A DNA stretch of 32,083 nucleotides from Verrucomicrobiota bacterium (GTDB lineage Bacteria; Verrucomicrobiota; Verrucomicrobiia; Opitutales; Opitutaceae). The notes beneath the pieces are model-generated. The model was given only the letters and a program-made list of their open reading frames with translations. It made no database searches and was not told the DNA's origin. Of the stretch, positions 2,322-32,083 are shown piece by piece. A program made the position numbers and the translations under genes. The stretch's first letter is position 1; each line of letters opens with the position of its first letter. Location of the stretch: contig JAPLTN010000011.1 in the NCBI GenBank assembly GCA_026398135.1, positions 1 through 32,083 on the forward strand. Reading direction: 5' to 3'.

Positions 2322-2496
2322 AATAGCGGGGAGCTTGGAGCGGGGGGCGGTGAGGGACGGAAGGACTGGGATCTGAGGGAAGGAGCGGAGGTGTGGCAAT
2401 AGCAGGCAGGCTGGCTGAGGTCGCAAGTTGAGAGCTGAGCAGCGGCAGTATTTAGCCTGCCCTTGCCTTGCCCGTGGCGGGAACTAAACTGTACTT

Positions 2497-2850
2497 ATGG
2501 CTTTAGTTCTCGCTCCGAACCCGGGTCTTCGCGCCGCCGCCCCGATGACCTTTAGCGTCGAGGAGCGCACTGTGCTTCTGAACATGGCCCGAAAATATAT
2601 CTGGTGGATGCAGCCGGAGGAAGCGCTGTGCTATCCTGCGCGCGTTATTGCCCAGGTGATGAATCTAGGTGTGTTTGAGGATGCGTTTGGCCTTCTGGAA
2701 CTGCTAGGCGCTGATCGCCTGGTGGACGTTTTGTGTCGCGCGGAAGCAGGGCAATTTAGTCCGGAATCCTGGCATTTTTGGCATTATCGGCTCGATCTGG
2801 TGCAGGCAGATGAACCCATGCCCCCACTGCTGGTGCGGCACATCCCTTAG
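2497..2850 (+). CDS. Small protein, probable partner (antitoxin candidate) of AbiEii-like protein
   Basis: This 117-aa acidic soluble protein has no domain I can name with certainty. It contains ARKYIWWMQPEEAL near the start and a C-terminal SWHFWHYRL segment, a Trp/His-rich block. It ends 31 bp before the AbiEii-like gene, on the same strand. That order (small protein, then nucleotidyltransferase) is what toxin-antitoxin modules often show, so an antitoxin role is inferred from position only. A second in-frame ATG at 2545 (MTFSVEERT) is an equally good start, and neither has a clear ribosome-binding site. Confidence 0.7.
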   Translation: MALVLAPNPGLRAAAPMTFSVEERTVLLNMARKYIWWMQPEEALCYPARVIAQVMNLGVFEDAFGLLELLGADRLVDVLCRAEAGQFSPESWHFWHYRLDLVQADEPMPPLLVRHIP

Positions 2851-2881
2851 CGTGGTTTACCCGCTGCGCATATGGCCGAGA

Positions 2882-3559
2882 ATGAAGACCTTTACCCCAA
2901 AATTTGAGATCTTGCCGACAGAGCAGGTCGCGCTCTGGCCCCAGTTGCGGCCAATCTCCGAGCTTGGGTTTATACTCTATGGCGGCACGTCAATCGCGCT
3001 ACGGCTGGGGCACCGAAGGTCGGTGGATTTTGATTTTTTCACCTCCGGGCCGGTGGATCGTACGCAGTTGAGAAAAGTGCTTCCGTTTTTATCCACCTCG
3101 CAGGTTTTGCAGGACAAGGGCGAGGCCTTCGAGGTTATCACGGCCAAGGGGGTAAAAGTGGCCTTTTTTGGGGCTTTGGACTTTGGGCACTTGGAAGAGC
3201 CGGAGCGCAGTGAGGACGGGGTCGTCGTAGCCGCTTCGTTGAACGATCTGATGGCCCATAAACTGAAGGTTATCTTACAGCGTTCGGAGGCGAAGGACTA
3301 TCAGGACATCGCGGCCCTGTTTCGGGCGGGGCTAAGCGTGGCACAAGGGCTGGCGTCGGCCGAGTGGTTGTTCCATCCCGCGTTTCCGATTCAGCATTCG
3401 TTACGCGCTCTCACTTATTTCGAGGATGGTGATCTTGAACGTTTAAACCTTCGCGATCGGGCGGATTTGGTAGCAGCGGCTAAAACCGTAAAACTTCCCT
3501 TGCCGGAGGTTCGAGGGCACCCGGGTCTTGGTGCCTGCACCTGGGTCCACCCTGAGTGA
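2882..3559 (+). CDS. Nucleotidyltransferase of the AbiEii/AbiGii toxin family (DUF1814-like)
   Basis: A 225-aa protein with the minimal nucleotidyltransferase signature of the AbiEii family: YGGTSIALRLGHRRSVDFDFF, giving Gly34-Gly35 and the metal-binding pair Asp49/Asp51. The downstream helix LNDLMAHKLKVIL and the KDYQDIAAL motif are also typical. Characterised members transfer nucleotides to tRNA acceptor ends and act as toxins in type IV toxin-antitoxin or phage-abortive systems. Whether this one does so is inference. The ATG at 2882 is preferred to 2810, which would overlap the upstream gene and add a Cys/Trp-rich tail. With the preceding small gene it forms a compact two-gene accessory module between housekeeping genes. 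Confidence 0.85.
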   Translation: MKTFTPKFEILPTEQVALWPQLRPISELGFILYGGTSIALRLGHRRSVDFDFFTSGPVDRTQLRKVLPFLSTSQVLQDKGEAFEVITAKGVKVAFFGALDFGHLEEPERSEDGVVVAASLNDLMAHKLKVILQRSEAKDYQDIAALFRAGLSVAQGLASAEWLFHPAFPIQHSLRALTYFEDGDLERLNLRDRADLVAAAKTVKLPLPEVRGHPGLGACTWVHPE

Positions 3560-7272: not shown

Positions 7273-9075
7273 ATGAACGACCGCACCCCGCACCACTCGC
7301 CCGACCGCGAGCCTGACTACGACCCCGAGCAGGACTCCGACGCGCCGCATCCAGATTCCGCCGATAGCGCCCAGACCAGCCTGGACGAACAACTTACCCA
7401 GCCGCCCGAAGAGCACGACCACGAACCGGTGGACCGCTCCGAACTCAAGGCCGGCGCCCAGGAACGCGCCAAACAACGCCCCCTCCTGCAAAAAATCCTC
7501 GCGGTTTTTAAGAAGGAAAAAACCTCCTTCCGCGAACTCATCATCAACAGCGAACCGCTGGAAAAACGCGTCGCCCTGCTGATCGACGGCGTGCTGGAAA
7601 AATTCGAAATCGAGCGCCACGACGCCGACCGCATGGTGGGTGGCATTTTTAAGGGCAAGGTCAAGAACCTCGACCCCGGCCTCAAGGCCGCCTTCGTGGA
7701 CATCGGCTACTCCAAAAACGCCTTCCTCCACTACTGGGATATGCTGCCCGCCGCCGCCGACTCCTCGGTCGAAGTCGTGCGCGTTAACAAAAAGAAAAAC
7801 TCCCTCCCCGCCGGCCAGGAGCCGACCGTGAAGGACATTCCCCAGCTCTACCCGCCCGGCTCCGAGATCGTCATTCAGGTCACCAAGGGCCCCATCGGCA
7901 CCAAGGGACCGCGCACCACCACCAACCTCTCCCTGCCCGGCCGCTACCTCGTGCTCACCCCGTTCTCCGATTCCTGCGGCATCTCCCGCAAAATCGAGGA
8001 CCCCAAAGAGCGCGCCCGCCTGCGCCAACTGGTCAACGAACTCACCATCCCCGAAGGCATGGGCGTGATCGTGCGCACCGCCGGCGAGGGCAAGAAATCC
8101 CGTTACTTCGTTCGCGACCTCCACCTGTTGCTCAAAACCTGGTCCGACATCCAGGCCAAGCTCAACACCCAGCGCGCCCCCCTCGCCCTCTACCAGGAGC
8201 CCGACATCGTCGAGCGCACCGTGCGCGACTTCCTCACCGAGGAGGTGGATCGCGTGCTCATCGACAACCCCGAGGACCACGTCCGCTGCCAGGCCTCCGT
8301 CGCCCAGATCAGCCAGCGCTCAAAAGGCAAGATCGCCCTCTACCAGAACAGCATACCGATCTTTGAACGCTTCAACATCGAGCGCCAGATCGAGCAGACC
8401 TACCAGCGCAAGGTCGCCCTGCCCTCCGGCGGCGAAATCATCATCGACGAGACCGAGGCCCTCATCGCCATCGACGTAAATACCGGCTCGCACAAAAACC
8501 GCGGCGGCGACGAGAAAAACGTCATTTACGCGGTCAACCTGGAAGCCGCCGTCGAAGCCGCCCGCCAGATCCGCCTGCGCAACCTCGGCGGCCTGATCAT
8601 CATCGACTTCATCGATATGAAGGAGCGTCGCCACCGCAACGGCGTTTACGAGAAGCTCTGCGAGGCCATGGCCGAGGACAAAGCCAAGAACCACATCCTC
8701 CCCATCAGCCAGCTCGGTATCCTTCAGATGACGCGCCAGCGCCAGCAGGAATCCCTCTCGTCGAATCTCTACACCGACTGCCCCTACTGCCGGGGCCGCG
8801 GCATCGTAAAGAGCGCCACCACCATGAGCGTGGAGCTGCAACGCAAACTCAGCGCCGTCATCCGCCGCCTCGTCGCGCGCAAGGACGGCAAAGAGTATCA
8901 GCTCCGCGTGATGGTACACCCCGGCATTTTGGAACGCCTGCGCAGCGAAGACGCCAACCTGCTCGTCCGCATGGAACGCGACTACGGCGTGAAGCTGGCC
9001 TTCCGCGCCGACCCCGCCTACCACTTGGAAAACTTCAAGATCATCAACGCCCTCACCGGCGAAGAATATCGCTAA
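7273..9075 (+). CDS. rng: Ribonuclease E/G family endoribonuclease
   Basis: A 600-aa single-strand-specific endoribonuclease for rRNA maturation and mRNA decay. Order of domains: an acidic Pro/Asp-rich N-terminal extension (1-60); an S1 RNA-binding domain (about 120-215, [23 protein letters not shown]-type start) with a Lys-rich insertion near 170-185; a 5'-sensor/RNase H region with [13 protein letters not shown]; and a DNase I-like catalytic core. In the core, metal ligands are Asp401 (AIDVNTG) and Asp445 (IIIDFIDM). A zinc-link motif CPYCRGRG (Cys503, Cys506) follows. There is no long RNase E-type scaffold tail, so it is closer to RNase G in architecture. A factor-independent terminator follows at 9127-9158. 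Confidence 0.95.
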
Positions 9076-9126
9076 GCTCCCGCGTCGTCCGTTGATCAGC
9101 AGGATGCACGTAAATGCTTCCACCTC

Positions 9127-9158
9127 AGCCCCGTAGCCCTGAAAGCGCGGGGCTTTTT
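9127..9158 (+). terminator. Rho-independent terminator after the RNase E/G gene
   Basis: AGCCCCG (9127-9133) pairs with CGGGGCT (9148-9154) and is followed by a run of T residues to 9158. It lies 51 bp after the RNase stop codon and would end the mscS-rodA-rng transcription unit. Confidence 0.85.
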
Positions 9159-9394
9159 CATGCCAGATAACGGCCCCGAATCAAGAATACCCCCCCATAA
9201 TGTGAAGTCTCGGTGTCCGTTGCAGAGAGCACGGCAGCGCTAAACCAACGATAATACTATATGCCGATCATTCCCCTTTTGGGAAACCATACCCAACCGA
9301 ATCGGCCGACAATGGGAGTTCCGCGCGCATCGCCGCCGAAATCAAAAACCGGAACTCATACCGGATATCCGATCACGTCCTTGATTGCACCCAA
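9159..9394. other. Intergenic region between convergent genes, no gene seen
   Basis: No supported ORF, tRNA or known RNA element. Composition is visibly less GC-rich than the neighbouring genes. The only structure noticed is a 10-bp palindrome, CGGATATCCG, at 9362-9371. Confidence 0.5.
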
Positions 9395-9427
9395 TAAAAA
9401 ACGCCCCCGGAAATCCGGAGGCGTTTT
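9395..9427 (-). terminator. Rho-independent terminator of the Lys-rich HTH gene
   Basis: On the minus strand AAAACGCCTCCGG pairs with CCGGGGGCGTTTT (one G-T pair) around a short loop, and the hairpin is followed by a T run (plus-strand A run 9396-9401). It lies 45 bp downstream of the stop at 9472. Confidence 0.88.
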
Positions 9428-9471
9428 GAATTAAAAAAGTAAGTTAAACCTTAACTATTAGCGAATAGCAA

Positions 9472-9918
9472 TTAGACAGCAGGCTCGGCTACAACCACGG
9501 GAGCGTCGACCTGGGCGACGGAACGGGTTTTGACCATTCCGAAGGCCTTCTTGATATTTTGAACGCTGGGCTGGGAAATACCCAGCTCCTTGGCGATCTC
9601 CTGACCGGTCTTGCCGGCCTCGGCGAGAGCTTTTACTTGAGCCTTCACCTCATCGGTGATTTTGGCGCGCTTGCCTTTGGAGGCCTTGGGAGCCTTTGGG
9701 GCTTTAGGAGCTTTGTCGGCTTTCGGGCCCTTAACCTTCTTTACGCCCTTACCATCAGCTTCCTTCAGGGCTTTGATAAAGTCGTTAAGGTTGGAGTAGC
9801 CGTAATCACTGGGCAGCTTGGATAGAGCGGCAACGCGGTCGGCGGAGAGTTTGGCCTCGGCTTGAGCGAGTTTGGCTTTGGCTTTTTCGAGTTCGGCGAG
9901 TTGATCGATGAATGACAT
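9472..9918 (-). CDS. Coiled-coil / Lys-Ala-Pro linker / helix-turn-helix protein, nucleoid-associated candidate
   Basis: A 148-aa protein of unnamed family. Residues 1-30 form a heptad-like helix (FIDQLAELEKAKAKLAQAEAK) suited to oligomerisation. The middle (about 58-85) is a basic PKA/APK-rich linker resembling histone H1-type tails. The C-terminal part (about 86-125: ITDEVKAQVKALAEAGKTGQEIAKELGISQPSVQNIKKAF) is a clear resolvase/Hin-type helix-turn-helix. The layout (oligomerisation helix, basic linker, DNA-binding head) parallels H-NS and other bacterial chromatin proteins, though the fold is not H-NS. It has its own terminator and an AT-rich upstream region, so it is probably monocistronic and well expressed. 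Function is inferred. Confidence 0.85.
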   Translation of the reverse strand: MSFIDQLAELEKAKAKLAQAEAKLSADRVAALSKLPSDYGYSNLNDFIKALKEADGKGVKKVKGPKADKAPKAPKAPKASKGKRAKITDEVKAQVKALAEAGKTGQEIAKELGISQPSVQNIKKAFGMVKTRSVAQVDAPVVVAEPAV

Positions 9919-9994
9919 ATCGCTGCTTACAAGGTGCGAATTTTTTTATTTATCAAGTACTATATTTAAAAAAATACGGACGCGAACAGCCCAC

Positions 9995-23554: not shown

Positions 23555-23956
23555 ATGCGTCGCTTCTCCGCACTCCTTGTCCTCTGCGCCTGGCTCCTGG
23601 CCAGCGGCGCGCATTGGGACTTCGTGCAAGGCTTCGCCTGGGGCCGCATGATCGCCGCCTACAGCCGTACCATGCCGCTGGAACAGGCGATCAAACTTAC
23701 CTTTACCGCGGATAATCTCTGCGGCGTCTGCGAATTCGTCGCCGAGGGCAAAACCCGCACCGACGCCCTCCCGTCCTCCAGCCAGACCCCGGTCCCTGGC
23801 GAGTCAGTCGCGAAAGCCAAACCGCCCATCGCCCCCGCCCCCGAGCACCTTTTCGTTTTTTGCGCCGTGTCCGAGCCCAAGTGGCCGACGGAGCATTTCC
23901 TGCCCGACGCCCACGCGCGTCCCGCCCCGCCCGTAGAGCCGCCGCGGGCGGCCTGA
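23555..23956 (+). CDS. Small membrane-anchored CxxC protein at the head of the TonB receptor cluster
   Basis: A 133-aa protein with an N-terminal hydrophobic helix or signal (RFSALLVLCAWLLASGAHW). A short amphipathic stretch (FVQGFAWGRMIAAYSRTMPLEQAIK) and a Cys56-x-x-Cys59 pair (NLCGVCEFV) follow. The Pro-rich C-terminal part contains FVFCAV and scattered His residues. The layout recalls DUF2946-type proteins found beside TonB-dependent copper receptors, but I cannot confirm membership. It lies 213 bp upstream of TonB receptor 1 on the same strand. Metal or redox handling is inferred from the Cys pair and the position. Confidence 0.72.
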   Translation: MRRFSALLVLCAWLLASGAHWDFVQGFAWGRMIAAYSRTMPLEQAIKLTFTADNLCGVCEFVAEGKTRTDALPSSSQTPVPGESVAKAKPPIAPAPEHLFVFCAVSEPKWPTEHFLPDAHARPAPPVEPPRAA

Positions 23957-24169
23957 TCCCGGCGTCTGCCTGGGTTCGTGTAGGGTCTTCGCTTGCCGAA
24001 GACCGCGCGTTCCCGGCGCTCTCTCCCCAATCTCGCCCGGCCCGAGCCATGTCGCTCGCCGCCGCGTCCGCTCTGCCCAGCCAGACGGACCACCGCCCAG
24101 AATTCCCGCAAAACAGGGCCTCTTCCCGCCGCCGCCGCGCGTGCGCGAACGCCCCCGATACACCCGTTC

Positions 24170-26449
24170 ATGAACTTTTTCCCGTCTTTCCGTCCCCTCC
24201 TGCTCGCGCTGGCCACGGCCATCGCGCTCCACGCCCAAAGCGTGCCGCCGCCCTCTCCCGAAAAACCCGTCGTCCTCGATCCGCTCGAAGTTACAGGCAC
24301 TGCAAACGCCGGGGCCCTTTCGCCCTTCGTCGCCCCCCAAACCGTGCGCTCCATCGAAGCCCGGACCATAGCGGAAACCGTCAACGCCATTGACGCCGAG
24401 GACGCCGTCAAATACCTGCCCAGCCTCTTCCTGCGCAAACGCAACAACGGCGACACGCAGGCCGTGCTCGCCACCCGCGTCTGGGGCGTAAGCTCCAGCG
24501 CCCGCAGCCTGATCTACGCCGACGGCGTGCTGCTCTCCGCCCTCATCGCCAACAACAACACCATCGGCGGTCCCCGCTGGGGCCTGGTCGCCCCCGCCGA
24601 AATCGAGCGCATCGACGTCCTCTACGGCCCCTTCTCCGCCGCCTACCCCGGCAATTCCATCGGCGCCGTGATGGAAATCACCACCCGCCAGCCGACCCGA
24701 TTCGAAGCCTCGCTCCAACAGTCCGAGGCCTGGCAGCAGTTCTCCCTCTACGGCACCAAGGACAACTACCTCACCCACCAGACCGCCGCCTTGGTCGGCG
24801 ACCGCGTCGGCAAGTTCTCCTACTGGGTGAGCGCCAACCACCAAAACAGCCACAGCCAGCCCCTGAGCTTTGTCACCAGCGCCACCTTCCCCGCCGGCAC
24901 CACCGGCGCTTATGCCGCCAAAAACAAACTCGGCGCCCCCGCCAACATCGTCGGCGCATCCGGCCTCCTCCAGACCGACATGACCAACGCCAAGGTGAAA
25001 CTCGCCTACGACCTCACCCCCGCCCTGAGCGCCGCCTACACCCTCGGCCTGTGGCGTAACCGCGCCGACGCCGACGTCCAAACCTACCTCCGCGATTCCG
25101 CCGGCAAGCCCACTTTCAAGGGCCTCTCCGGCTTCGCCTCCGGCTACTACCAACTGGAGCAAGACCACTCCTCGCACAGTCTCTCGCTCAAGAGCGACAC
25201 CAAGGGCCCGTGGGACTTCTCCGCCGCCGCCTCGTTGTATCAATATGATCGCGACGCCCAGCGCTCGCCCGCCACCGCCTCCGCCACCGGCACCACCTTT
25301 GGCAAAGCCGGACGACTCGCCAGCCTGGAAGGCACCCAGTGGTCCACCCTCGACCTGAAAGCCGCCTGGCAGCCCGACGGCAAAGACAGCCCCCACGTCG
25401 TCAGCTTCGGTGCTCACCACGACCAATACCGTCTCGTCAACCCCACCTACAATACCGCCTCGTGGATCTCCGGCCCGGCCACCACCGTCTCCACCCGGGG
25501 CGACGGCAAAACCCGCACCCAGGCCCTCTGGGCGCAGGATGCCATCCGTCTCGCCCCCGGCCTGAGCCTGACCCTCGGCGCGCGCTACGAAGACTGGCGT
25601 GGCTACGACGGCTATAACGTCAACGGCGCCACCACCGTCCGCCAACCCGACGTGTCCGAAAACAACGTCTCGCCCAAGGGGGTGCTCACTTGGACTCCCG
25701 CCCCCGCCTGGTCCGTCACCGCCTCGCTGGCCCAAGCCTACCGCTACGCCACCGCCGCCGAACTCTACCAACTCGTCTCCACCGGCACCACCTTCACCGC
25801 GCCGAATCCCGACCTGAAACCCGACGACGTCGTCGCCGCCGAACTCCGTGTCGAGCGCGCCTTCAAAAAAGGCCGCGTGCAGGTCGCGCTCTTCCAGGAC
25901 GACATCCACGACGCCATCATCGCTCAGTTCCTTCCCCTCGGCCCCTCGGCCATTCCCGTCTCCTACCTGGCCAACGTGGATCACGTCCGCGCGCGCGGCG
26001 TCGAGCTCGTCGTCGAACGCCAGGATGTTCTAGCCGAGGGCTTCGATTTCTCCGGTAGCGTCACCTACGTCGATGCCGAGACCCTCGCCATCCGCGGCGG
26101 TGCCAGCGCCACCGGCACGCCCGCCACCATCATCGGCAAAAACCTGCCCAACATCCCCGACTGGCGCGCCACCGCGCAGATCGCCTACCGGCCCGACAAA
26201 CACTGGACCTACTCGCTCGCCGGTCGCTACAGCGCACGCCTCTACACCACGCTCGATAACTCCGACGTCTACTTTAACACCTACCAGGGCTTCTCCGCCT
26301 GGTTCGTGGCCGACGTGCGCGCCCACTACCGCGTCAACGACCGCTGGTCCGCCAGCCTCGGCGTCGATAACCTGCTCAACCGCGAATACTTCCTCTTCCA
26401 CCCCTTTCCGCAACGCACCGTGGTGGCCGACGTTAAGTTCTCGTTCTGA
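24170..26449 (+). CDS. TonB-dependent outer-membrane receptor 1
   Basis: A 759-aa receptor: signal peptide (about 1-23, ending ALHAQ), TonB-box-like region (KPVVLDPLEVTG) and plug domain (about 45-170). The plug has DAVKYLPSLFLRKRNNGD, LIYADGVLLSAL and IERIDVLYGPFSAAYPGNSIGAVMEITTRQP. A 22-strand-type barrel ends in VVADVKFSF with terminal Phe. The plug motif RKRNNGDTQAVLATR belongs to a receptor group I recall from Gammaproteobacteria and Sphingomonads whose substrate is not established. The start at 24170 is set by the signal peptide. A 12-bp perfect-stem terminator follows at 26468-26512, so part of the transcription may end here before the next gene of the cluster. Confidence 0.93.
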   Translation: MNFFPSFRPLLLALATAIALHAQSVPPPSPEKPVVLDPLEVTGTANAGALSPFVAPQTVRSIEARTIAETVNAIDAEDAVKYLPSLFLRKRNNGDTQAVLATRVWGVSSSARSLIYADGVLLSALIANNNTIGGPRWGLVAPAEIERIDVLYGPFSAAYPGNSIGAVMEITTRQPTRFEASLQQSEAWQQFSLYGTKDNYLTHQTAALVGDRVGKFSYWVSANHQNSHSQPLSFVTSATFPAGTTGAYAAKNKLGAPANIVGASGLLQTDMTNAKVKLAYDLTPALSAAYTLGLWRNRADADVQTYLRDSAGKPTFKGLSGFASGYYQLEQDHSSHSLSLKSDTKGPWDFSAAASLYQYDRDAQRSPATASATGTTFGKAGRLASLEGTQWSTLDLKAAWQPDGKDSPHVVSFGAHHDQYRLVNPTYNTASWISGPATTVSTRGDGKTRTQALWAQDAIRLAPGLSLTLGARYEDWRGYDGYNVNGATTVRQPDVSENNVSPKGVLTWTPAPAWSVTASLAQAYRYATAAELYQLVSTGTTFTAPNPDLKPDDVVAAELRVERAFKKGRVQVALFQDDIHDAIIAQFLPLGPSAIPVSYLANVDHVRARGVELVVERQDVLAEGFDFSGSVTYVDAETLAIRGGASATGTPATIIGKNLPNIPDWRATAQIAYRPDKHWTYSLAGRYSARLYTTLDNSDVYFNTYQGFSAWFVADVRAHYRVNDRWSASLGVDNLLNREYFLFHPFPQRTVVADVKFSF

Positions 26450-26467
26450 TCCGCAAAATCATCCCTG

Positions 26468-26512
26468 GCCGCGCCGGTCACACGCCGCCGCAAACGACCG
26501 GCGCGGCTTTTT
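26468..26512 (+). terminator. Rho-independent terminator between receptor 1 and the secreted His1 protein
   Basis: GCCGCGCCGGTC (26468-26479) pairs perfectly with GACCGGCGCGGC (26496-26507), followed by TTTTT (26508-26512). It lies 18 bp after the receptor stop, with the next gene starting at 26544. It would lower expression of the downstream genes relative to receptor 1 or separate two units. Confidence 0.9.
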
Positions 26513-26543
26513 CCAACCAACCGTATTTCTCATTTTTGTTTCC

Positions 26544-27338
26544 ATGAAACCACGCACTTTCCTCACCGCACTGGCGCTCCTTGCCTCCGTCCTGCCCGCA
26601 TCGGCGCACATCAGTTTTAAGACCCGCGACCTCGGCACCTTCGATGGCACGTCGTCCGTTTCCGTCACCATCGACAACCAGACCGTGCCCAACAACTCCG
26701 GCTGGGCCGACGGCACCTACCCCGCCCTGGCCGATTCCCACAAAGTCCGCGCCTTCCGCTTCACCCTGGCCGCACCCGCCACCATCACCCTGGCCGTCGC
26801 CGCTAATCCCGCCGCCACCGATAAATCCATCGGTGGACTGCTGCCCGCCTTCAGCCTTTATGCAGGACTGCCCCACCTCCCGCCCGATGCGCTCGACTAC
26901 GACCGCGCCCCCATCACCTCGGCCTGGCTCGCCACCCTCGCCGCCCCCCAGCCGAAAATCGGTGCCTTCGACGCGCTCCACACCTTCCGCATCGGTAGCG
27001 ACGCCGCCAAGCCCACCGGGACCGGCAGCTACGATTTCAGCGCTCTCTCCACCCTCACCTTCGTCGGCTACGCCGCCGACGGCGGCCCCGCCAACCTCGG
27101 CGAAGTATCCGGCGCCACCGGAGACGGCGCGGCCGACGGACGCGTCACCGGCACCTGGCAACTGCCCGCCGGCTCCTACACGGTTTTTGTCGGCGGCGCC
27201 GACCATGCCCACCGCGAGAAATCGGGCGTCGGCTACGGCGTCGCCGTCACCCTGAAAATCGTCGCGCCCCCCGCCGCCGCGAGCGCCGCTCACAACAGCC
27301 ACAAACCCGCCGCCGCCCAAGATAGCGCCAAACCCTGA
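26544..27338 (+). CDS. Secreted protein with predicted N-terminal histidine, metal-binding candidate
   Basis: A 264-aa exported protein of unnamed family. The signal peptide ends LPASA, and predicted cleavage after Ala21 leaves His22 as residue 1 of the mature protein (HISFKTRDLG). The mature part looks beta-rich (VRAFRFTLAAPATITLAVAAN, GTWQLPAGSYTVFVGGADHAHRE). Other histidines are at 66, 111, 146, 221, 223, 250 and 253, the last two in a Lys/Ala/Pro tail. A free N-terminal His is a copper ligand in CopC, LPMOs and related periplasmic proteins, which makes copper binding plausible here. Function is inferred. The gene sits between the receptor 1 terminator and a small membrane protein gene (24 bp gap). 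Confidence 0.85.
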   Translation: MKPRTFLTALALLASVLPASAHISFKTRDLGTFDGTSSVSVTIDNQTVPNNSGWADGTYPALADSHKVRAFRFTLAAPATITLAVAANPAATDKSIGGLLPAFSLYAGLPHLPPDALDYDRAPITSAWLATLAAPQPKIGAFDALHTFRIGSDAAKPTGTGSYDFSALSTLTFVGYAADGGPANLGEVSGATGDGAADGRVTGTWQLPAGSYTVFVGGADHAHREKSGVGYGVAVTLKIVAPPAAASAAHNSHKPAAAQDSAKP

Positions 27339-27362
27339 CCACCCATCGTCGTCACCGCCGCC

Positions 27363-27803
27363 ATGCTCGCCTACGCCGCCCTCTGGCTTCCGCCCGTCGC
27401 CGCCACTGCCATTCTCCTCGCCGCCACGCGCCGCACCTGGCGGCACCACCGCCGCTTCAAAACCGCCCTCGGCCTCACCCTCGCCTTCGCCGCTCTCACC
27501 GTCGGCCTCGGCTATCTCCCGCCCGCGCTCGCCACCGTCGTGGCCCCGCTGCTCGCCCTCATCGCTCTCTGCGTGGTCTGCACGCTCGGCGAATGGCGGC
27601 ACGCCCCCGACTTCGGCCAACGCGGCCTGCTCTGGCTTCTTCCCCGCGCCGCCGCCCCCGCCCTCCTCGGCGCCCTCGGCCTGCTCGCCACCCAGACGCT
27701 CTGGTTCGCCTCCCTAGCCCCCGACCTCCTCCAACTCCCCCTGCTCTTCACCGGCTCCCTAGCCTCCCTGCTCCCCTTTCCTCGCTCTTTTTTCCGTTCA
27801 TGA
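27363..27803 (+). CDS. Small integral membrane protein in the receptor cluster
   Basis: A 146-aa hydrophobic protein with about four predicted membrane helices: LAYAALWLPPVAATAILLA, the KTALGLTLAFAALTVGL region, TVVAPLLALIALCVVCTL, and LLGALGLLATQTLWFASL. Loops are basic or contain a few His residues (RRTWRHHRR). No family is recognised. Its stop overlaps the receptor 2 start as ATGA, which implies co-translation and a linked role. Confidence 0.75.
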   Translation: MLAYAALWLPPVAATAILLAATRRTWRHHRRFKTALGLTLAFAALTVGLGYLPPALATVVAPLLALIALCVVCTLGEWRHAPDFGQRGLLWLLPRAAAPALLGALGLLATQTLWFASLAPDLLQLPLLFTGSLASLLPFPRSFFRS

Positions 27804-29929
27804 ACTCAACCCAACTGCATCCCACCGCCCTTAAACTGGCCGCCCTGGCCACCTTGCTCGCTCCCGGCGTGCTTCTCGCCCAAGCCGCCCCGGCGGTGAC
27901 GCTCGACCCCGTCGAGGTCTGGGCCTCCAGCCAGCAGCCCACCCAAATCGCCAAACCCGGCGCGCTCGCCACCCGCACCGAAACCCCGCCCCTCACCACT
28001 CCGCAAACCACCGCCACCCTCAACCGCACCCTCCTCGACGAACAACAACTCAACACCCTCGCTGCCGCCTTGGTAAACGTCGCCGGTGCCGTCCCCACCA
28101 AGTCCGAAGAGATCGTGCTCGATCAGCCCAAGATTCGCGGCTTCTCCTCCGAAATCTACGTGGACGGCCTGCCCGCCTACGGAGCCACCGCCATCATCGA
28201 CCCCTCCACCTTGATCAACGTCCAGCGCATCGACGTCGCCAAGGGTCCCGCCTCCGCCCTCTACGCCGGCGGCGTCGGCGCGCCCTTGGGCGGTCTCATC
28301 AACCTCGAAACCAAAACCCCCGACTACACCGCCGCCCGCCGCGTCGTCGGTCTGCGCGCCGGGGAATACGCCGCCTACGGCGCCGAGATCGATGTCAACC
28401 AACCCCTCTCCGCCGACGGCCGCGCCGCCTTCCGCCTGACCGCCGATTACGGCTCCGCCGAAAGCCACCTCGACGCCGTCGAAAGCGAACGCCACAGCGT
28501 AAACCCCTCCCTCGCGATCAAACTCACCCCGCGCACCGAACTCGTGATCAAGGGCCAGTTCACCGAGGTTCACCAATATGAATACTCCGGCCTCCCCGCC
28601 GAACTCTTCATCCCCGGCAATCCCGCCTTCGTGCCCGGCCTAGACCGCGAACGCTTCCCCGGCGCCCTCAACTCCCCTGACACCACCATCGAGAACAAAC
28701 TCGGCACCGCCACTGTCCGCCACGAATTTTCCGAAGACTGGAGCGCCACCCTGCGCGGCCGCATTTACAACAGCGAGTTCAACGAATACTCCACCTTCCC
28801 CTTCGCCGCCTTCTTCCCCACGGTCGGCTCCACCTACACCTACCTTTCCGGCTACCTGCCCACCGAGGTGAACGAAACCACCGTCACCTTCCAGGTGGAC
28901 GGCCTCGTCGAGACCGGCCCGCTCCACCACCGCATCGCCGCCGGCCTCGATCATGACCGCGCGGACTACGCCGCAACCTTCGGCTTCACCCCCGTCGGCA
29001 CCCTCGATTTCAGCTCCAACGCCAACACCCTTTCCTTCATCGCCCCGGGTGCCCCTGGCATTGTGCAGAACGATACCTACGTCACCACCGCACTCTGGGC
29101 CCAGGACCAGATCCAGTTGCCCGGCCGGGTCCACCTTCTCGGCGGCCTCCGCTACACCCGCATCGAAATCGAGGAAAAGACCCCCGTTCGCGAAAACGGC
29201 TACGACGAAATCACCCCCCGCATCGGCGCGGCCTGGGAATTCATTCCCGGCATCTCACTCTTCGCCGCCCGCTCCGAAGGCTTCCGCGCCCCGTGGAGCG
29301 TCACCCTCGCTCCCGGCGACACCCTGAAGCCCGAGTCCTCCGTCCATCACGAAACCGGCTTTAAGTTTCAACACGCACCCACCGGACTGCACGGCACCGT
29401 GTCGGTCTACGAACTCGAGCGCGACAACGTCACCGTCTCCAACCCCGCCGTCCCCTTCACCTCCGTGCAGACCGGCCAGCAGCGCTCCCGCGGGCTCGAA
29501 ACCGACCTCATCTGGGAACCCACCCCCGCCTTCTCCCTCCTCACCGCCTATGCGTACACCGACGGCGAAGTCACCCGCGACACCACCGCCGCCAACGTCG
29601 GCAGCGACCTGCCCAAAATCCCCCTCCACTCCGGCCGCCTCGCCGCCCGCTACCGCTTCCAATCCGACGCACTCAAAGGCCTCGGTGCCGGACTCGGCGT
29701 GACCGCCGCCAGCAGCCGCGCCATCAAAATCCCCGCCTCCTACCGGGCCGAAGCCTACCACGCCTTCGACGCCCAGCTCTCCTACGCTTTCGGCCGCTAC
29801 ACCGTCGGCCTCAGCTGCGCGAACCTCACCGATGAGGACTATCTGGAAGCCTACCAATACCTGAGCGCCGACATCCTCATGCCCGCCCGCCCCCGCACCT
29901 TCTCGGTCAGCGTCCAAGCCGAATTCTAA
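27800..29929 (+). CDS. TonB-dependent outer-membrane receptor 2 (siderophore-receptor type)
   Basis: A 709-aa receptor with signal peptide (about 1-28, ending VLLAQ), TonB-box-like APAVTLDPVEVWA, and a plug. The plug carries DEQQLNTLAAALVNVAGAVP, IRGFSSEIYVDGLPAYG and VQRIDVAKGPASALYAGGVGAPLGGLINLETKTP. The barrel includes TALWAQDQIQLPGRVHLLGGLRYTRIE, ITPRIGAAWEF and GLETDLIWEPTPAFSLLTAYAYTDGEV, and the C-terminal strand is FSVSVQAEF. These features match ferric-siderophore receptors of the FhuE/FpvA group, although the substrate of such receptors cannot be read from sequence. Translation is coupled to the upstream membrane protein (ATGA) and the DJ-1/PfpI gene follows after 10 bp. Confidence 0.94.
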   Translation: MNSTQLHPTALKLAALATLLAPGVLLAQAAPAVTLDPVEVWASSQQPTQIAKPGALATRTETPPLTTPQTTATLNRTLLDEQQLNTLAAALVNVAGAVPTKSEEIVLDQPKIRGFSSEIYVDGLPAYGATAIIDPSTLINVQRIDVAKGPASALYAGGVGAPLGGLINLETKTPDYTAARRVVGLRAGEYAAYGAEIDVNQPLSADGRAAFRLTADYGSAESHLDAVESERHSVNPSLAIKLTPRTELVIKGQFTEVHQYEYSGLPAELFIPGNPAFVPGLDRERFPGALNSPDTTIENKLGTATVRHEFSEDWSATLRGRIYNSEFNEYSTFPFAAFFPTVGSTYTYLSGYLPTEVNETTVTFQVDGLVETGPLHHRIAAGLDHDRADYAATFGFTPVGTLDFSSNANTLSFIAPGAPGIVQNDTYVTTALWAQDQIQLPGRVHLLGGLRYTRIEIEEKTPVRENGYDEITPRIGAAWEFIPGISLFAARSEGFRAPWSVTLAPGDTLKPESSVHHETGFKFQHAPTGLHGTVSVYELERDNVTVSNPAVPFTSVQTGQQRSRGLETDLIWEPTPAFSLLTAYAYTDGEVTRDTTAANVGSDLPKIPLHSGRLAARYRFQSDALKGLGAGLGVTAASSRAIKIPASYRAEAYHAFDAQLSYAFGRYTVGLSCANLTDEDYLEAYQYLSADILMPARPRTFSVSVQAEF

Positions 29930-29939
29930 AATAACCATC

Positions 29940-30869
29940 ATGCCCGCCCCCGCCTCGCCCGTCCCGCCCCGCCGCGACTTCCTCCGCCAGATCGCCGCCC
30001 TCGCGCCCTTGCTCGCCCTGAGCTCGGTCGCGCGGGCGGGCGAGGCCACCACCGCCGCCGAAAAACTCGACGCCCACCACAAACAGGGCCCGCTCCAGCC
30101 TTCGCCCACCGCCGCCCAGCTCGAAGCCCATGAAAAACTCATGGCCATTCCCGACATCCAGATGCACGGCGCCGAACAGATCGCCCTGCTGATCTACCCC
30201 GGCTTCACCGCCCTGGATCTGGTCGGCCCCCATTACTTTTTTGCCTGCCTCATGGGGGCCAAGGTCCATCTCGTCACCACCCAGCCCGACCTCGCGCCTC
30301 TCGCCAGCGACCTGGGTCTGGCCATCACCCCAACCTGCACCCTCGCCGACTGCCCCGCCGACCTCGATGTGCTCTTCATCCCCGGCGGCACGCACGGCAC
30401 CCTCGCCGCCGCGCGCGATCCCGCCGTCGTAGCTTTCGTCCAGGACCGCGCCTCGCGCGCCCGCCACACTGCCAGCGTCTGCACCGGCTCCTTCGTGCTC
30501 GGTGCCGCCGGCCTGCTCCGCGGCAAACGCGCCACCAGCCACTGGATCGCCCGCGAATCCCTCACCGCCTTCGGAGCCACCCCGGTCGATGAACGCGTCG
30601 TCTGGGACGGCAGCCTGGTCACCGGCGCGGGCGTCACCGCCGGCATTGATCTGGGGCTCGCCCTCGTTGAACGCCTGCGCAGCCGCACCTACGCTGAAGC
30701 TCTCATGCTCCAGGCGGAGTATGCCCCCGCTCCACCCTTCCCCATCGTCACCCCGCGCACCGGAAACCCCGCGCTGGTGAACGCCCTCCACCAAATGTAC
30801 CAACCCCTGCGCGACGGCGCGGCCGAGATCGGTGCCGCGCTCGCCGCCACCCCCTTGCCGAAACCCTGA
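29940..30869 (+). CDS. Exported DJ-1/PfpI-family protein resembling isonitrile hydratase
   Basis: A 309-aa protein. It starts with a twin-arginine-type signal (RRDFLRQ at 11-17, hydrophobic AALAPLLAL, then ARA), so it is probably exported folded. The DJ-1/PfpI domain begins near residue 80 (AEQIALLIYPGFTALDLVGP) and carries the nucleophile elbow ASVCTGSFVLGAAGLLRGKRAT with Cys181-Thr182. It continues with TSHW, FGATPVDERVVWDG and VTGAGVTAGIDLGLALVE. In isonitrile hydratase InhA the catalytic Asp lies in the LDL segment and the Cys-Thr pair is required. All three are present (Asp93, Cys181, Thr182). Cytoplasmic location is usual for the family, so an exported copy is odd. Isonitrile hydration is a hypothesis; AraC-type regulator relatives share this fold, but no HTH is present here. 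Confidence 0.88.
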   Translation: MPAPASPVPPRRDFLRQIAALAPLLALSSVARAGEATTAAEKLDAHHKQGPLQPSPTAAQLEAHEKLMAIPDIQMHGAEQIALLIYPGFTALDLVGPHYFFACLMGAKVHLVTTQPDLAPLASDLGLAITPTCTLADCPADLDVLFIPGGTHGTLAAARDPAVVAFVQDRASRARHTASVCTGSFVLGAAGLLRGKRATSHWIARESLTAFGATPVDERVVWDGSLVTGAGVTAGIDLGLALVERLRSRTYAEALMLQAEYAPAPPFPIVTPRTGNPALVNALHQMYQPLRDGAAEIGAALAATPLPKP

Positions 30870-30901
30870 ATCCGGCAAACTTGCCCGTCATTTCCCACCA
30901 C

Positions 30902-31360
30902 ATGCACCACCGCTTCGAACTCGCCCCCGCCTCCCGCCGCGCCGACTGGCCCAAGGCCCTCTCCTTCGCCATTGCCACCGGCGCGCCCGCCTACGTCGCC
31001 ATCTATCTAATCGGCGACCACAACCTCGCCCTCACCGCCATCGTCGGCAGCATCTGCTTCCTCGGCACCTTCATCGTCGGCCTGGCCATGGCCACCGGCA
31101 CCTCCGGCCACCTCGCCCTCACCGCCGACAGCCTGCTCCTGCAAAGCGGACACCTCCAAGCCGCCGTCCCGCTCGCTGAACTCGATCTCGCCGCCGCCCG
31201 TATCGGCATTCCCCAAGAGTCCTTATCCGGCCCCGGACTCCGCCTCGATACCCGCACCTCCCACGCTGTCACCATTCCCCGCCGCCACGGCCCCGCCGTA
31301 GTCGTCACCCCGCTCGATCCCGCCGAATTTATCCGCACCCTCCAACTCCGCCACCCATGA
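30902..31360 (+). CDS. Small membrane protein with PH-like soluble domain
   Basis: A 152-aa protein with two predicted membrane helices near residues 20-40 and 45-67 (PAYVAIYLIGD, AIVGSICFLGTFIVGLAMATG). A beta-rich C-terminal half follows (LALTADSLLLQSGHLQAAVPLAELD, VTIPRRHGPAVVVTPLDPAEFIRTLQ). The pattern fits bacterial PH-domain membrane proteins. The ATG at 30902 is chosen over a TTG at 30881. Its stop overlaps the CusF-like gene as ATGA, so it belongs to the cluster, but its role is unknown. Confidence 0.78.
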   Translation: MHHRFELAPASRRADWPKALSFAIATGAPAYVAIYLIGDHNLALTAIVGSICFLGTFIVGLAMATGTSGHLALTADSLLLQSGHLQAAVPLAELDLAAARIGIPQESLSGPGLRLDTRTSHAVTIPRRHGPAVVVTPLDPAEFIRTLQLRHP

Positions 31361-31686
31361 AAACCATCCAGTTCGCACTAGGCCTTGCCGCCGCCTCCCT
31401 CGCCGTCGCCCAACCCGTTCAAGATACCAAACCCGCAACCACCACCGCCCCCAGCCCAGGCCACCCGCTCAAAGGCGTCATCGTCGAAATCGTCGCGGAA
31501 AAGAAAGCCCTGCTGGTCAAACACGAGGAAATCCCCGGCGTCATGCGCGCCATGACCATGCTGCTTAAAGTGGACGCACCCACCCTCGCCGCCGCCAAAA
31601 AAGGCCAGGCCATCACCGCCACCCTCCACAAACACTCCGACGGCTGGTGGCTGGAAACCGTCACCCCCCTCGCCCCCACCCCCTGA
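31357..31686 (+). CDS. CusF-like periplasmic copper-binding protein
   Basis: A 109-aa exported protein with signal peptide (about 1-18, ending AVAQ). After a Thr/Pro linker comes a small OB-fold domain: HPLKGVIVEIVAEKKALLVKHEEIPGVMRAMTMLLKV, then KKGQAITATLHKHSDGWWLETV. This is the copper-binding CusF_Ec-type domain with His56 and the methionines Met63, Met66 and Met68 (HEEIPGVMRAMTM pattern). E. coli CusF uses His, Trp and two Met to bind Cu(I). Here the Trp is not at the usual place, and Met63 may substitute. It ends 2 bp before a remnant of a copper receptor gene. This is the strongest single evidence that the cluster deals with copper. Confidence 0.9.
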   Translation: MKTIQFALGLAAASLAVAQPVQDTKPATTTAPSPGHPLKGVIVEIVAEKKALLVKHEEIPGVMRAMTMLLKVDAPTLAAAKKGQAITATLHKHSDGWWLETVTPLAPTP

Positions 31687-31688
31687 CC

Positions 31689-31832
31689 GCCGGGGTGGAC
31701 AACCTGCTCGACGCCACCTACGCCGAGCACATCAGCCGCAGCGGCGCCGCCGTGGCCGGCTGCCTCGACACCACCCGCGTCAACGAACCCGGCCTCAACC
31801 TCTGGGTTATATCAATTCCCCCATGGTTTTAG
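31689..31832 (+). pseudogene. C-terminal remnant of a TonB-dependent copper receptor
   Basis: Starting 2 bp after the CusF-like stop codon, one frame encodes AGVDNLLDATYAEHISRSG and then AVAGCLDTTRVNEPGLNLWV. This matches the last strands of TonB-dependent copper receptors (OprC/NosA type), which end with GVDNxxDxxYAEH, then RVNEPG and an aromatic. The upstream 600 or more codons are absent, so a large deletion has joined the CusF gene to the receptor tail. The match also ends at about 31808, after which the frame reads ISIPPWF and stops, so the final beta strand is missing as well. No start codon or signal exists, so it cannot make a working receptor. Confidence 0.82.
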
Positions 31833-31975
31833 ACTATGAAACGATAATTGGTGTAGCAACGGTCGCTGACCGGTGCGGTTTAGAGGCCGGAACCGGTCAC
31901 CGACCGGTTCTACATTGTGACAAAGTCTAAATTCATCGGGACTTTGGTATGAGTCGTGGCTACAGTTTTACTTAA
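31833..31975. other. Gene-free right flank
   Basis: About 140 bp with no gene, AT-richer than the cluster. Contents are the 22-bp-arm inverted repeat at 31853-31913 and otherwise unremarkable sequence up to TTAA (31972-31975), which abuts the right terminal repeat. Confidence 0.6.
31853..31913. repeat. Imperfect inverted repeat with 22-bp arms
   Basis: The arm 31853-31874 (GTAGCAACGGTCG...) and the arm 31892-31913 (ending ...CGACCGGTTCTAC) are reverse complements with three mismatches, around a 17-nt centre. It lies in the gene-free right flank, between the receptor remnant and the IS-like end. It could be a small dispersed repeat or a hairpin that ends transcription of the cluster, though no U-run follows. 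Confidence 0.65.
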
Positions 31976-32083
31976 CCCGAGTTCCGCAGTTTGAAAGATG
32001 GTTTTGTTGTATTTGAGGCACTTGTGTAATTTAAGGGGCGATTTTCGGCACTACATTGCTGATTTCGCGAGTGCCTTTTGGCA
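31976..32083. repeat. Right copy of 108-bp inverted terminal repeat (probable IS end)
   Basis: Exact reverse complement of 6-113. The sequence reads CCCGAGTTCCGCAG outward from 31976 and runs to the last base of the window. Inside it GCACT/AGTGC and TGCC/GGCA can form short hairpins. The base just inside is the A of TTAA (31972-31975). The element is cut off by the window end, so its length and content are unknown. Confidence 0.85.

Follow-up and report, generated by a model that had tools for sequence, protein, structure and literature searches.

Two kinds of described copper locus are headed by a short open reading frame (ORF) with a cysteine motif and a proline-rich end. In the CruR-CrtA-CrpH operon of Bordetella pertussis, as passages of three reports describe it, a small upstream ORF with CxxC and a proline C-terminal motif is followed by a gap and a TonB receptor, and related operons carry PepSY_TM, PCuAC, SCO, and OprC-type genes (PMC9426467, PMC12914433, PMC13038864). 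The gap measures 162 bases in a passage of PMC9426467, and part of the paper on the CrtA receptor states that its in vivo ligand is still to be identified. The CutF-like nascent exported copper sensors combine an export signal, a Cys copper motif, and proline-rich last residues, with TonB-like, PCuAC, and CusF genes among their downstream neighbors (passages of PMC9973294). Here, we analyzed the whole of contig JAPLTN010000011.1 (32,083 bases, hereafter the window), which belongs to the 3.39-Mb genome (117 contigs) of a Verrucomicrobiota bacterium of the Opitutaceae. From position 23,555 to the contig end, its plus strand carries a gene cluster that very likely serves copper acquisition and forms an operon of the CruR-headed kind. 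In addition, we regard it as probable that the exported DJ-1 protein of this cluster, encoded next to a TonB receptor, is a new component that acts on an imported copper complex.

The cluster is organized as follows:

23555-23956, plus strand: P1, a CruR/CutF-like upstream ORF (hydrophobic N terminus, CxxC, C-terminal ARPAPPVEPPRAA), assigned from motif layout and homologue loci
23957-24169, plus strand: 213-base gap separating P1 from receptor 1, the putative site of CruR-type control
24170-26449, plus strand: TonB-dependent receptor 1 (PF07715 and PF00593 over cut-off)
26544-27338, plus strand: HisP, an exported protein whose mature form begins with His and which carries D64-S65-H66 (no Pfam match above the cut-off)
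27363-27803, plus strand: small membrane protein gene with a 4-base overlap with the start of receptor 2 (no family over cut-off)
27800-29929, plus strand: TonB-dependent receptor 2, of the FoxA/FhuA-like siderophore-receptor subfamily and putative DJ-1 partner (TIGR01783, adjacency)
29940-30869, plus strand: exported DJ-1/PfpI protein with a signal of the twin-arginine translocation (Tat) type, a relative of isocyanide hydratase (PF01965)
30881-31360, plus strand: small protein between DJ-1 and CusF (no Pfam or NCBIfam family)
31357-31686, plus strand: CusF-like periplasmic copper-binding protein (PF11604)
31679-31809, plus strand: remaining 3' end of an OprC-type gene for a TonB copper receptor (TIGR01778 positions 590-631 of 637)

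A first-pass annotation of the DNA had placed here a CxxC protein, two TonB receptors, a His-led exported protein, an exported DJ-1 protein, a CusF-like protein, and the scar of a copper receptor, and every one of these was confirmed in or near its place. The small membrane protein and the small protein at 30881-31360 are additional to that list; the former shares 39% identity over 98 amino acids with a protein of another P1-headed cluster (L099; the labels L and G denote loci and genomes). The arrangement of the cluster is beyond chance, since portions of it recur at other loci.

The gene at the head of the cluster points to copper. In its layout, P1 resembles the copper-responsive upstream ORFs CruR and CutF, and the copper-dependent control that it would exert is putative. 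It has a hydrophobic start, a CxxC motif (CGVC, residues 56-59, C56-C59), a variable middle, and a frozen C-terminal end, given by A[CH]ARPAPP[VT]EPPRA[AV] across the window protein and four close homologues. A drifting middle combined with a fixed last dozen residues is what is predicted for an arrest peptide. P1 is present in 94 of 120 genomes of the taxonomic family, and 40 loci from 39 of these 94 genomes were examined; this sample was hand-picked and nonrandom, with several genera repeated, and includes two loci cut by contig ends (L106 and L107). All 40 loci have CxxC, and 34 have PPPR or EPPR close to the C terminus; four of the remaining six end in a close variant. A TonB receptor ORF starts 6 to 213 bases 3' of P1 at 28/40 loci; without a limit on distance, 30/40 have one downstream on that strand. 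CusF is found downstream at 14/40. At these loci, as at the DJ-1 loci discussed below, receptors and copper genes were detected with query sequences taken from the loci themselves. The window thus shows the CruR-type arrangement of a first gene, a long gap (213 bases), and a TonB receptor. In addition, a P1 relative (E value, 3.4e-13) that ends in PVPPPRFAA precedes an intact OprC-type receptor in the genus (L068). In the presence of copper, expression goes up under CutF and down under CruR; P1 may act in either direction.

The second line of evidence comes from the neighborhood of the DJ-1 gene (PF01965 score of 112.4 versus a Pfam cut-off of 26.6; RRDFLRQ near the protein start). The first-pass annotation had proposed a search for conserved linkage, and links to both TonB receptors and copper genes were indeed found elsewhere; the pairing of receptor and exported DJ-1 is shared by bacteria that are unrelated to each other. 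Immediately 5' of the DJ-1 gene and in the same orientation, a receptor gene is present at 15/21 loci with an exported DJ-1 protein, versus 0/15 loci with a nonexported one. However, eight of these controls (L017 to L024) come from actinobacteria, a group that lacks a TonB-type outer membrane, which leaves seven loci as the fair control; against these, the receptor linkage is 15/21 versus 0/7 (Fisher's exact test, P = 0.0014). Copper genes (SCO1, PCuAC, CusF, DUF2946, or P1) occur nearby at 9/21 exported loci versus 0/15 (P = 0.005). Because the loci are related and not independent, all P values serve only as a guide. Exported status was assigned by eye, from a twin-arginine pair in 20/21 proteins and RK in L041. 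L046, exported and hydratase-like but at a contig edge, was placed in neither group, and L032, which belongs to the exported clade but has no twin-arginine signal, was counted as nonexported. In one of the seven fair controls, L059, a TonB receptor gene is located on the opposite strand at a distance of 4.4 kb. Nine plasmid loci (H1 to H7, H18, and H19) derive from the best 30 of 1,136 matching records, and two of the loci (L029 and L030) represent one species. The copper genes were confirmed by Pfam in the window, L012, L014, L042, L043, L053, and L057, but not in L010 and L013, and the DUF2946-like gene of L053 has no Pfam match.

Among the strongest cases, a Methylibium metagenome-assembled genome (MAG; L012) shows the order SCO1-PCuAC-receptor-receptor-DJ-1-PCuAC, and L053 reads receptor-PCuAC-receptor-DJ-1-receptor-PepSY_TM. 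The order DUF2946-receptor-DJ-1 is found in both L014 and L057. A P1-like gene precedes DJ-1, at some distance, and SCO1 follows it in L042, and L043 likewise has P1-like and SCO1 genes near DJ-1. On Methylosinus and Methylocystis plasmids, a kinase and a regulator precede the receptor and DJ-1; the five kinase and regulator proteins beside these methanotroph copies do not reach the heavy-metal cut-offs. The receptor-DJ-1 pair of the Methylocystis plasmids (L029 and L030) lies beside pqqA and a methanol dehydrogenase cluster, which is not the case at the two loci of Methylosinus sp. C49. In L015 and L016, the exported DJ-1 gene lies near a gene for a di-heme cytochrome c peroxidase/MauG-family protein, plus YtkA in L016, with no TonB receptor in the DNA examined. 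A prepilin-like protein (by eye) directly precedes the exported DJ-1 gene in L042, L043, and L058; L042 and L058 also encode surface-type proteins in the vicinity.

A domain fusion to CusF adds to this evidence. Three further DJ-1-type proteins lie behind P1 at P1 loci that had been chosen regardless of DJ-1 (L094, L099, and L078). At L094 (positions 2434 to 3474, minus strand), a DJ-1-CusF fusion gene follows P1 and two TonB receptors, and its two domains score 78 and 31.6 bits, both over the cut-off. This fusion protein appears by eye to be exported, with a mature N terminus that is perhaps HDHAGAHG. DJ-1-YHS fusions are encoded at L099 (6497 to 7423), behind P1 and TonB receptors, and at L078 (768 to 2636); the L078 protein shares its reading frame with a TonB plug domain, which loss of the barrel or an assembly fault may explain. 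No second DJ-1-CusF fusion was found across the class, where 52 of 384 genomes matched the DJ-1 part and no alignment reached CusF (the fusion-bearing genome is outside this sample), nor among plasmids, where no record covered 80% of the fusion. The L094 fusion groups with a DJ-1 paralogue encoded elsewhere in the window's genome (ultrafast bootstrap [UFBoot], 100) and away from the window DJ-1, so that more than one DJ-1 branch has been recruited into such operons.

The recruitment of more than one branch suggests that a general cysteine property may matter, which would suit a DJ-1 protein that acts as a copper-binding thiol chaperone or redox protein and passes copper to CusF without any ligand chemistry. 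The DJ-1-CusF and DJ-1-YHS fusions favor this form of the copper-uptake explanation, and work on human DJ-1 turns up, at the level of titles, for copper chaperone and Cys106. The motif HDMS, located between signal and DJ-1 core, points the same way, as it occurs in 10/21 exported proteins (L012, L013, L014, L028 to L031, L041, L053, and L054) and in 0/8 nonexported proteins checked. However, HDMS is missing from the other 11, the window protein among them, and a hydratase-type triad is kept in 21/21 exported proteins, and we consider the chaperone form doubtful. The HDMS residues are possible copper ligands; the window protein has His and Met in this region, not the motif.

The kept triad leads to the question of whether DJ-1 acts on an isonitrile. 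The best sequence match to the window DJ-1 in the PDB is the Pseudomonas syringae ThiJ/PfpI protein 3ewn, followed by isocyanide hydratase (E value, 4e-56). A Foldseek search with the AlphaFold model (mean predicted local distance difference test [pLDDT] score of 72.8) gave the same order, with 3ewn as the closest fold and then isocyanide hydratase (E value, 1.5e-22; 48% identity with 6ni5). Residues D93, C181, and T182 align with D17, C101, and T102 of isocyanide hydratase, the closest enzyme of known activity. This is consistent with a carrier that is an isonitrile chalkophore, from which a periplasmic isonitrile hydratase would free copper by converting isonitrile to formamide. Diisonitrile hydration is reportedly the subject of work on Streptomyces thioluteus, to go by a title in the reference list of PMC10971408. 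According to passages of PMC10792529 and PMC10971408, isonitrile natural products can serve as chalkophores, and the hydratase probably has a defensive role. However, the Asp-Cys-Thr triad is also complete in three of four regulator-type relatives (two named GlxA in plasmid records, two labeled by the analyst) and was rejected as proof of isonitrile activity on that ground. In the tree, the exported proteins group with 3ewn and L032 (UFBoot, 83), and isocyanide hydratase falls outside a 27-member group that holds the window DJ-1 (UFBoot, 97), so that no grouping with the characterized hydratase was recovered. The C38 DJ-1 paralogue of the window's genome aligned poorly and was left out of the second tree built. 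The DJ-1 proteins of the comparable operons L094 and L099 also lie on other branches, L099 with CNG instead of CTG. A search for isonitrile synthase (PF05141) gave 0/15 genomes of the genus, but its control was silent everywhere, which makes this result uninformative. We judge the isonitrile form of the copper-uptake explanation unlikely. Of the copper uptake through an isonitrile-type carrier that the first-pass annotation had proposed, the copper part is thus well supported by the DJ-1 linkage, the copper-sensor-like layout of P1, and the DJ-1-CusF fusion, whereas the isonitrile part is unproven, given the triad in regulator-type relatives and the separate place of the hydratase in the tree.

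The distribution of the gene bears on another reading, in which DJ-1 is an antidote that destroys isonitriles, or comparable compounds that starve cells of copper, produced by competitors; its gene would accompany those for copper uptake because the poison brings on copper starvation. The patchy distribution of this DJ-1 fits such a role. At an E value of ≤1e-50, the DJ-1 profile matched 8/387 genomes of the phylum, four of them with an exported protein (the window, G494, G475, and G281); among the seven examined (all but G463), these four are TonB or copper linked and three are without linkage. In the genus, 1/15 genomes matched at ≤1e-40. At ≤1e-75, matches were obtained in 6/337 genomes of the class of Silicimonas and in 1/321 of the class of Piscinibacter, namely, Piscinibacter itself. 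The defensive role proposed for isocyanide hydratases (passages of PMC10792529 and PMC10971408) also argues for an antidote, but a receptor directly upstream at 15/21 loci suggests that a substrate is imported and that defense is not the sole function. We regard an antidote function as improbable.

Several observations weigh against copper acquisition. P1 gave no family match in Pfam, DUF2946 (PF11162) included, so that we describe it as CruR/CutF-like without assigning it to the family. The RAPP arrest motif expected about 45 residues past CxxC was not found; P1 ends in RPAPPVEPPRAA, with its R 62 residues past CxxC, and its motif is of the PPxxPPR type. The P1 relative before OprC in L068 is without CxxC. 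At the DJ-1 loci, the excess of copper genes over the fair controls is weak (9/21 versus 0/7, P = 0.06), no copper gene was found in the DNA examined at 12/21 exported loci, no receptor lies directly upstream at 6/21, and L013 has a gene of the NicO nickel-transport family nearby. In Caulobacter, CC1775 (DUF2946), CC1778 (TonB receptor), and CC1780 (ThiJ/PfpI), within CC1775-CC1782, are lowered in a zur mutant; the authors of that study assign most of the lowered genes that lack a Zur site to the Fur (iron) regulon. Finally, receptor 2 scores 293.5 as an NCBIfam siderophore receptor (TIGR01783), over the cut-off of 223.5.

The last two points suit an iron-siderophore locus, where receptor 2 would import a ferric siderophore that DJ-1 modifies and the copper genes would be chance neighbors. 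Both receptors have Plug and barrel domains over the Pfam cut-off, and receptor 2 is nearest in the PDB to FoxA (E value, ~1e-45; ~159 bits). It was rejected as a CrtA, with which it scores 69 bits (9rvq). Receptor 1 has only weak PDB matches, none of them to CrtA 9rvq at an E value of ≤0.001, and CrtA (9rvq/9rvx) is the closest relative of neither receptor. In addition, some PepSY_TM proteins are ferrisiderophore reductases, according to part of PMC13038864. However, CusF, SCO1, PCuAC, and DUF2946 or P1 recur at exported DJ-1 loci (9/21), and DJ-1 is once fused to CusF. An iron locus is improbable, and copper acquisition remains the reading that we prefer.

Related clusters suggest how such an operon is assembled. 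L025 (G164) occupies the same chromosomal place as the window (beside TatD, an M32 peptidase, and a large protein labeled DUF4177-type by eye) with the order P1-HisP-surface protein-CusF. Two genomes of the genus (G102 and G220) have P1-HisP-surface protein-another TonB receptor-CusF, and a MAG titled Opitutus sp. GAS368 (L010) has P1-HisP-surface protein-receptor 2-DJ-1-CusF-second P1. These variants point to a P1/HisP/CusF frame with a changeable receptor module, of which receptor 2 and DJ-1 form one. The receptor 2 gene of L010 occupies two ORFs (7867 to 9984), owing to either a frameshift or an assembly error. Of six surface-type proteins scanned, four have no NCBIfam family, and the other two matched only below the cut-off. 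The L027 cluster also encodes a prepilin-like protein (Pfam N_methyl, over cut-off).

Within this frame, CusF is assigned by PF11604 (35.4 versus a Pfam cut-off of 27). For HisP, signal cleavage by eye falls at ...LPASA|HISF, and the N-terminal His and D64-S65-H66 are kept in 5/5 homologues. CopC binds Cu(II) via an N-terminal His together with a DxH pair; for HisP, this parallel is a lead and not a test. The HisP homologues of L010, L025, and L027 have PEP-CTERM-like tails (below curated cut-offs), and the window copy has none. An AlphaFold model of HisP, built from a two-row alignment (mean pLDDT, 43.9), was not used. A second exported protein in the L010, L025, L026, and L027 clusters also begins with His after the likely signal (HDH or HSH, by eye), and in L027, it has a weak choice-of-anchor M match below the cut-off.

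The cluster ends in the OprC remnant, which starts at the CusF stop codon. Its 131 bases (31679 to 31809) show 90.8% DNA identity with the 3' end of the intact OprC-type gene of the same genus (G1231; L068), and its last residues are unlike those of the intact protein. It matches the end of TIGR01778 (TonB-copper; positions 590 to 631 of 637; E value, 6.8e-11) under the whole-protein cut-off. TIGR01778 is over the cut-off in 1/15 genomes of the genus (G1231). The contig ends about 270 bases past the remnant (window positions 31810 to 32083). The remaining genes of the window were rejected as members of the system; the ten ORFs judged are housekeeping-type or unassigned.

From the gene content, the recurrent linkage, the motif layout of P1, and the domain fusion, the following mechanism can be proposed, in which the copper response and its direction, the transported substrate, the reaction, and the transfer to CusF are predictions. 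P1 would sense copper during its own synthesis and thereby control how strongly the downstream genes are expressed. The two TonB receptors would carry a copper complex into the periplasm, with receptor 2 (FoxA/FhuA class) as the partner of DJ-1. The Tat-exported DJ-1 would apply its reactive cysteine to the imported complex, either changing the ligand, for which isonitrile hydration is one candidate, or removing copper. CusF and the His-led exported protein may bind the copper once it is released. The boldest version is a piracy module shared between phyla, in which a TonB receptor and a Tat-exported hydratase-like DJ-1 import a foreign copper-isonitrile complex and release its copper by breaking down the carrier chemically in the periplasm, with a nascent-chain copper sensor in control; we rate this as rather unlikely.

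No description of an exported DJ-1 in copper uptake was found among the titles and abstract openings listed from the open-licence literature. The term "DJ-1" is absent from the main texts of PMC9426467, PMC12914433, and PMC13038864, and "isonitrile" and "PfpI" are absent from those of the latter two. Little is known about copper release from an imported complex in Gram-negative bacteria, and an exported DJ-1 that is linked to a receptor, and in one case joined to a CusF domain, offers a concrete candidate for the release step. If true, it would provide a physiological setting for exported relatives of isocyanide hydratase. In addition, P1 represents a CruR/CutF-like ORF family that is common in the taxonomic family and that the Pfam DUF2946 model does not detect in the window.

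When compared to described systems, the locus resembles CruR-CrtA-CrpH in the CxxC upstream ORF, proline C-terminal motif, gap, and TonB receptor. It differs in a P1 that has no DUF2946 match and ends in EPPRAA, in receptors that are not nearest to CrtA, and in the added exported DJ-1. With the CutF-like sensors, P1 shares the export signal, the Cys motif, and the proline-rich last residues. The remnant corresponds to the 3' end of the copper receptor OprC, with 42 of 637 model positions remaining and no full-length match. The window DJ-1 has the fold and Asp-Cys-Thr triad of Pseudomonas isocyanide hydratase InhA but differs from it by a Tat-type signal and an N-terminal extension and lies apart on the tree. 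Its closest solved structure, 3ewn, sits within the exported clade and has Ser, not Thr, after the cysteine. Periplasmic ferric-siderophore hydrolases such as PfeE offer a functional parallel to the role proposed for DJ-1, as enzymes linked to a TonB receptor that act on an imported metal carrier; they differ in working on iron by ester chemistry and in belonging to another enzyme family.

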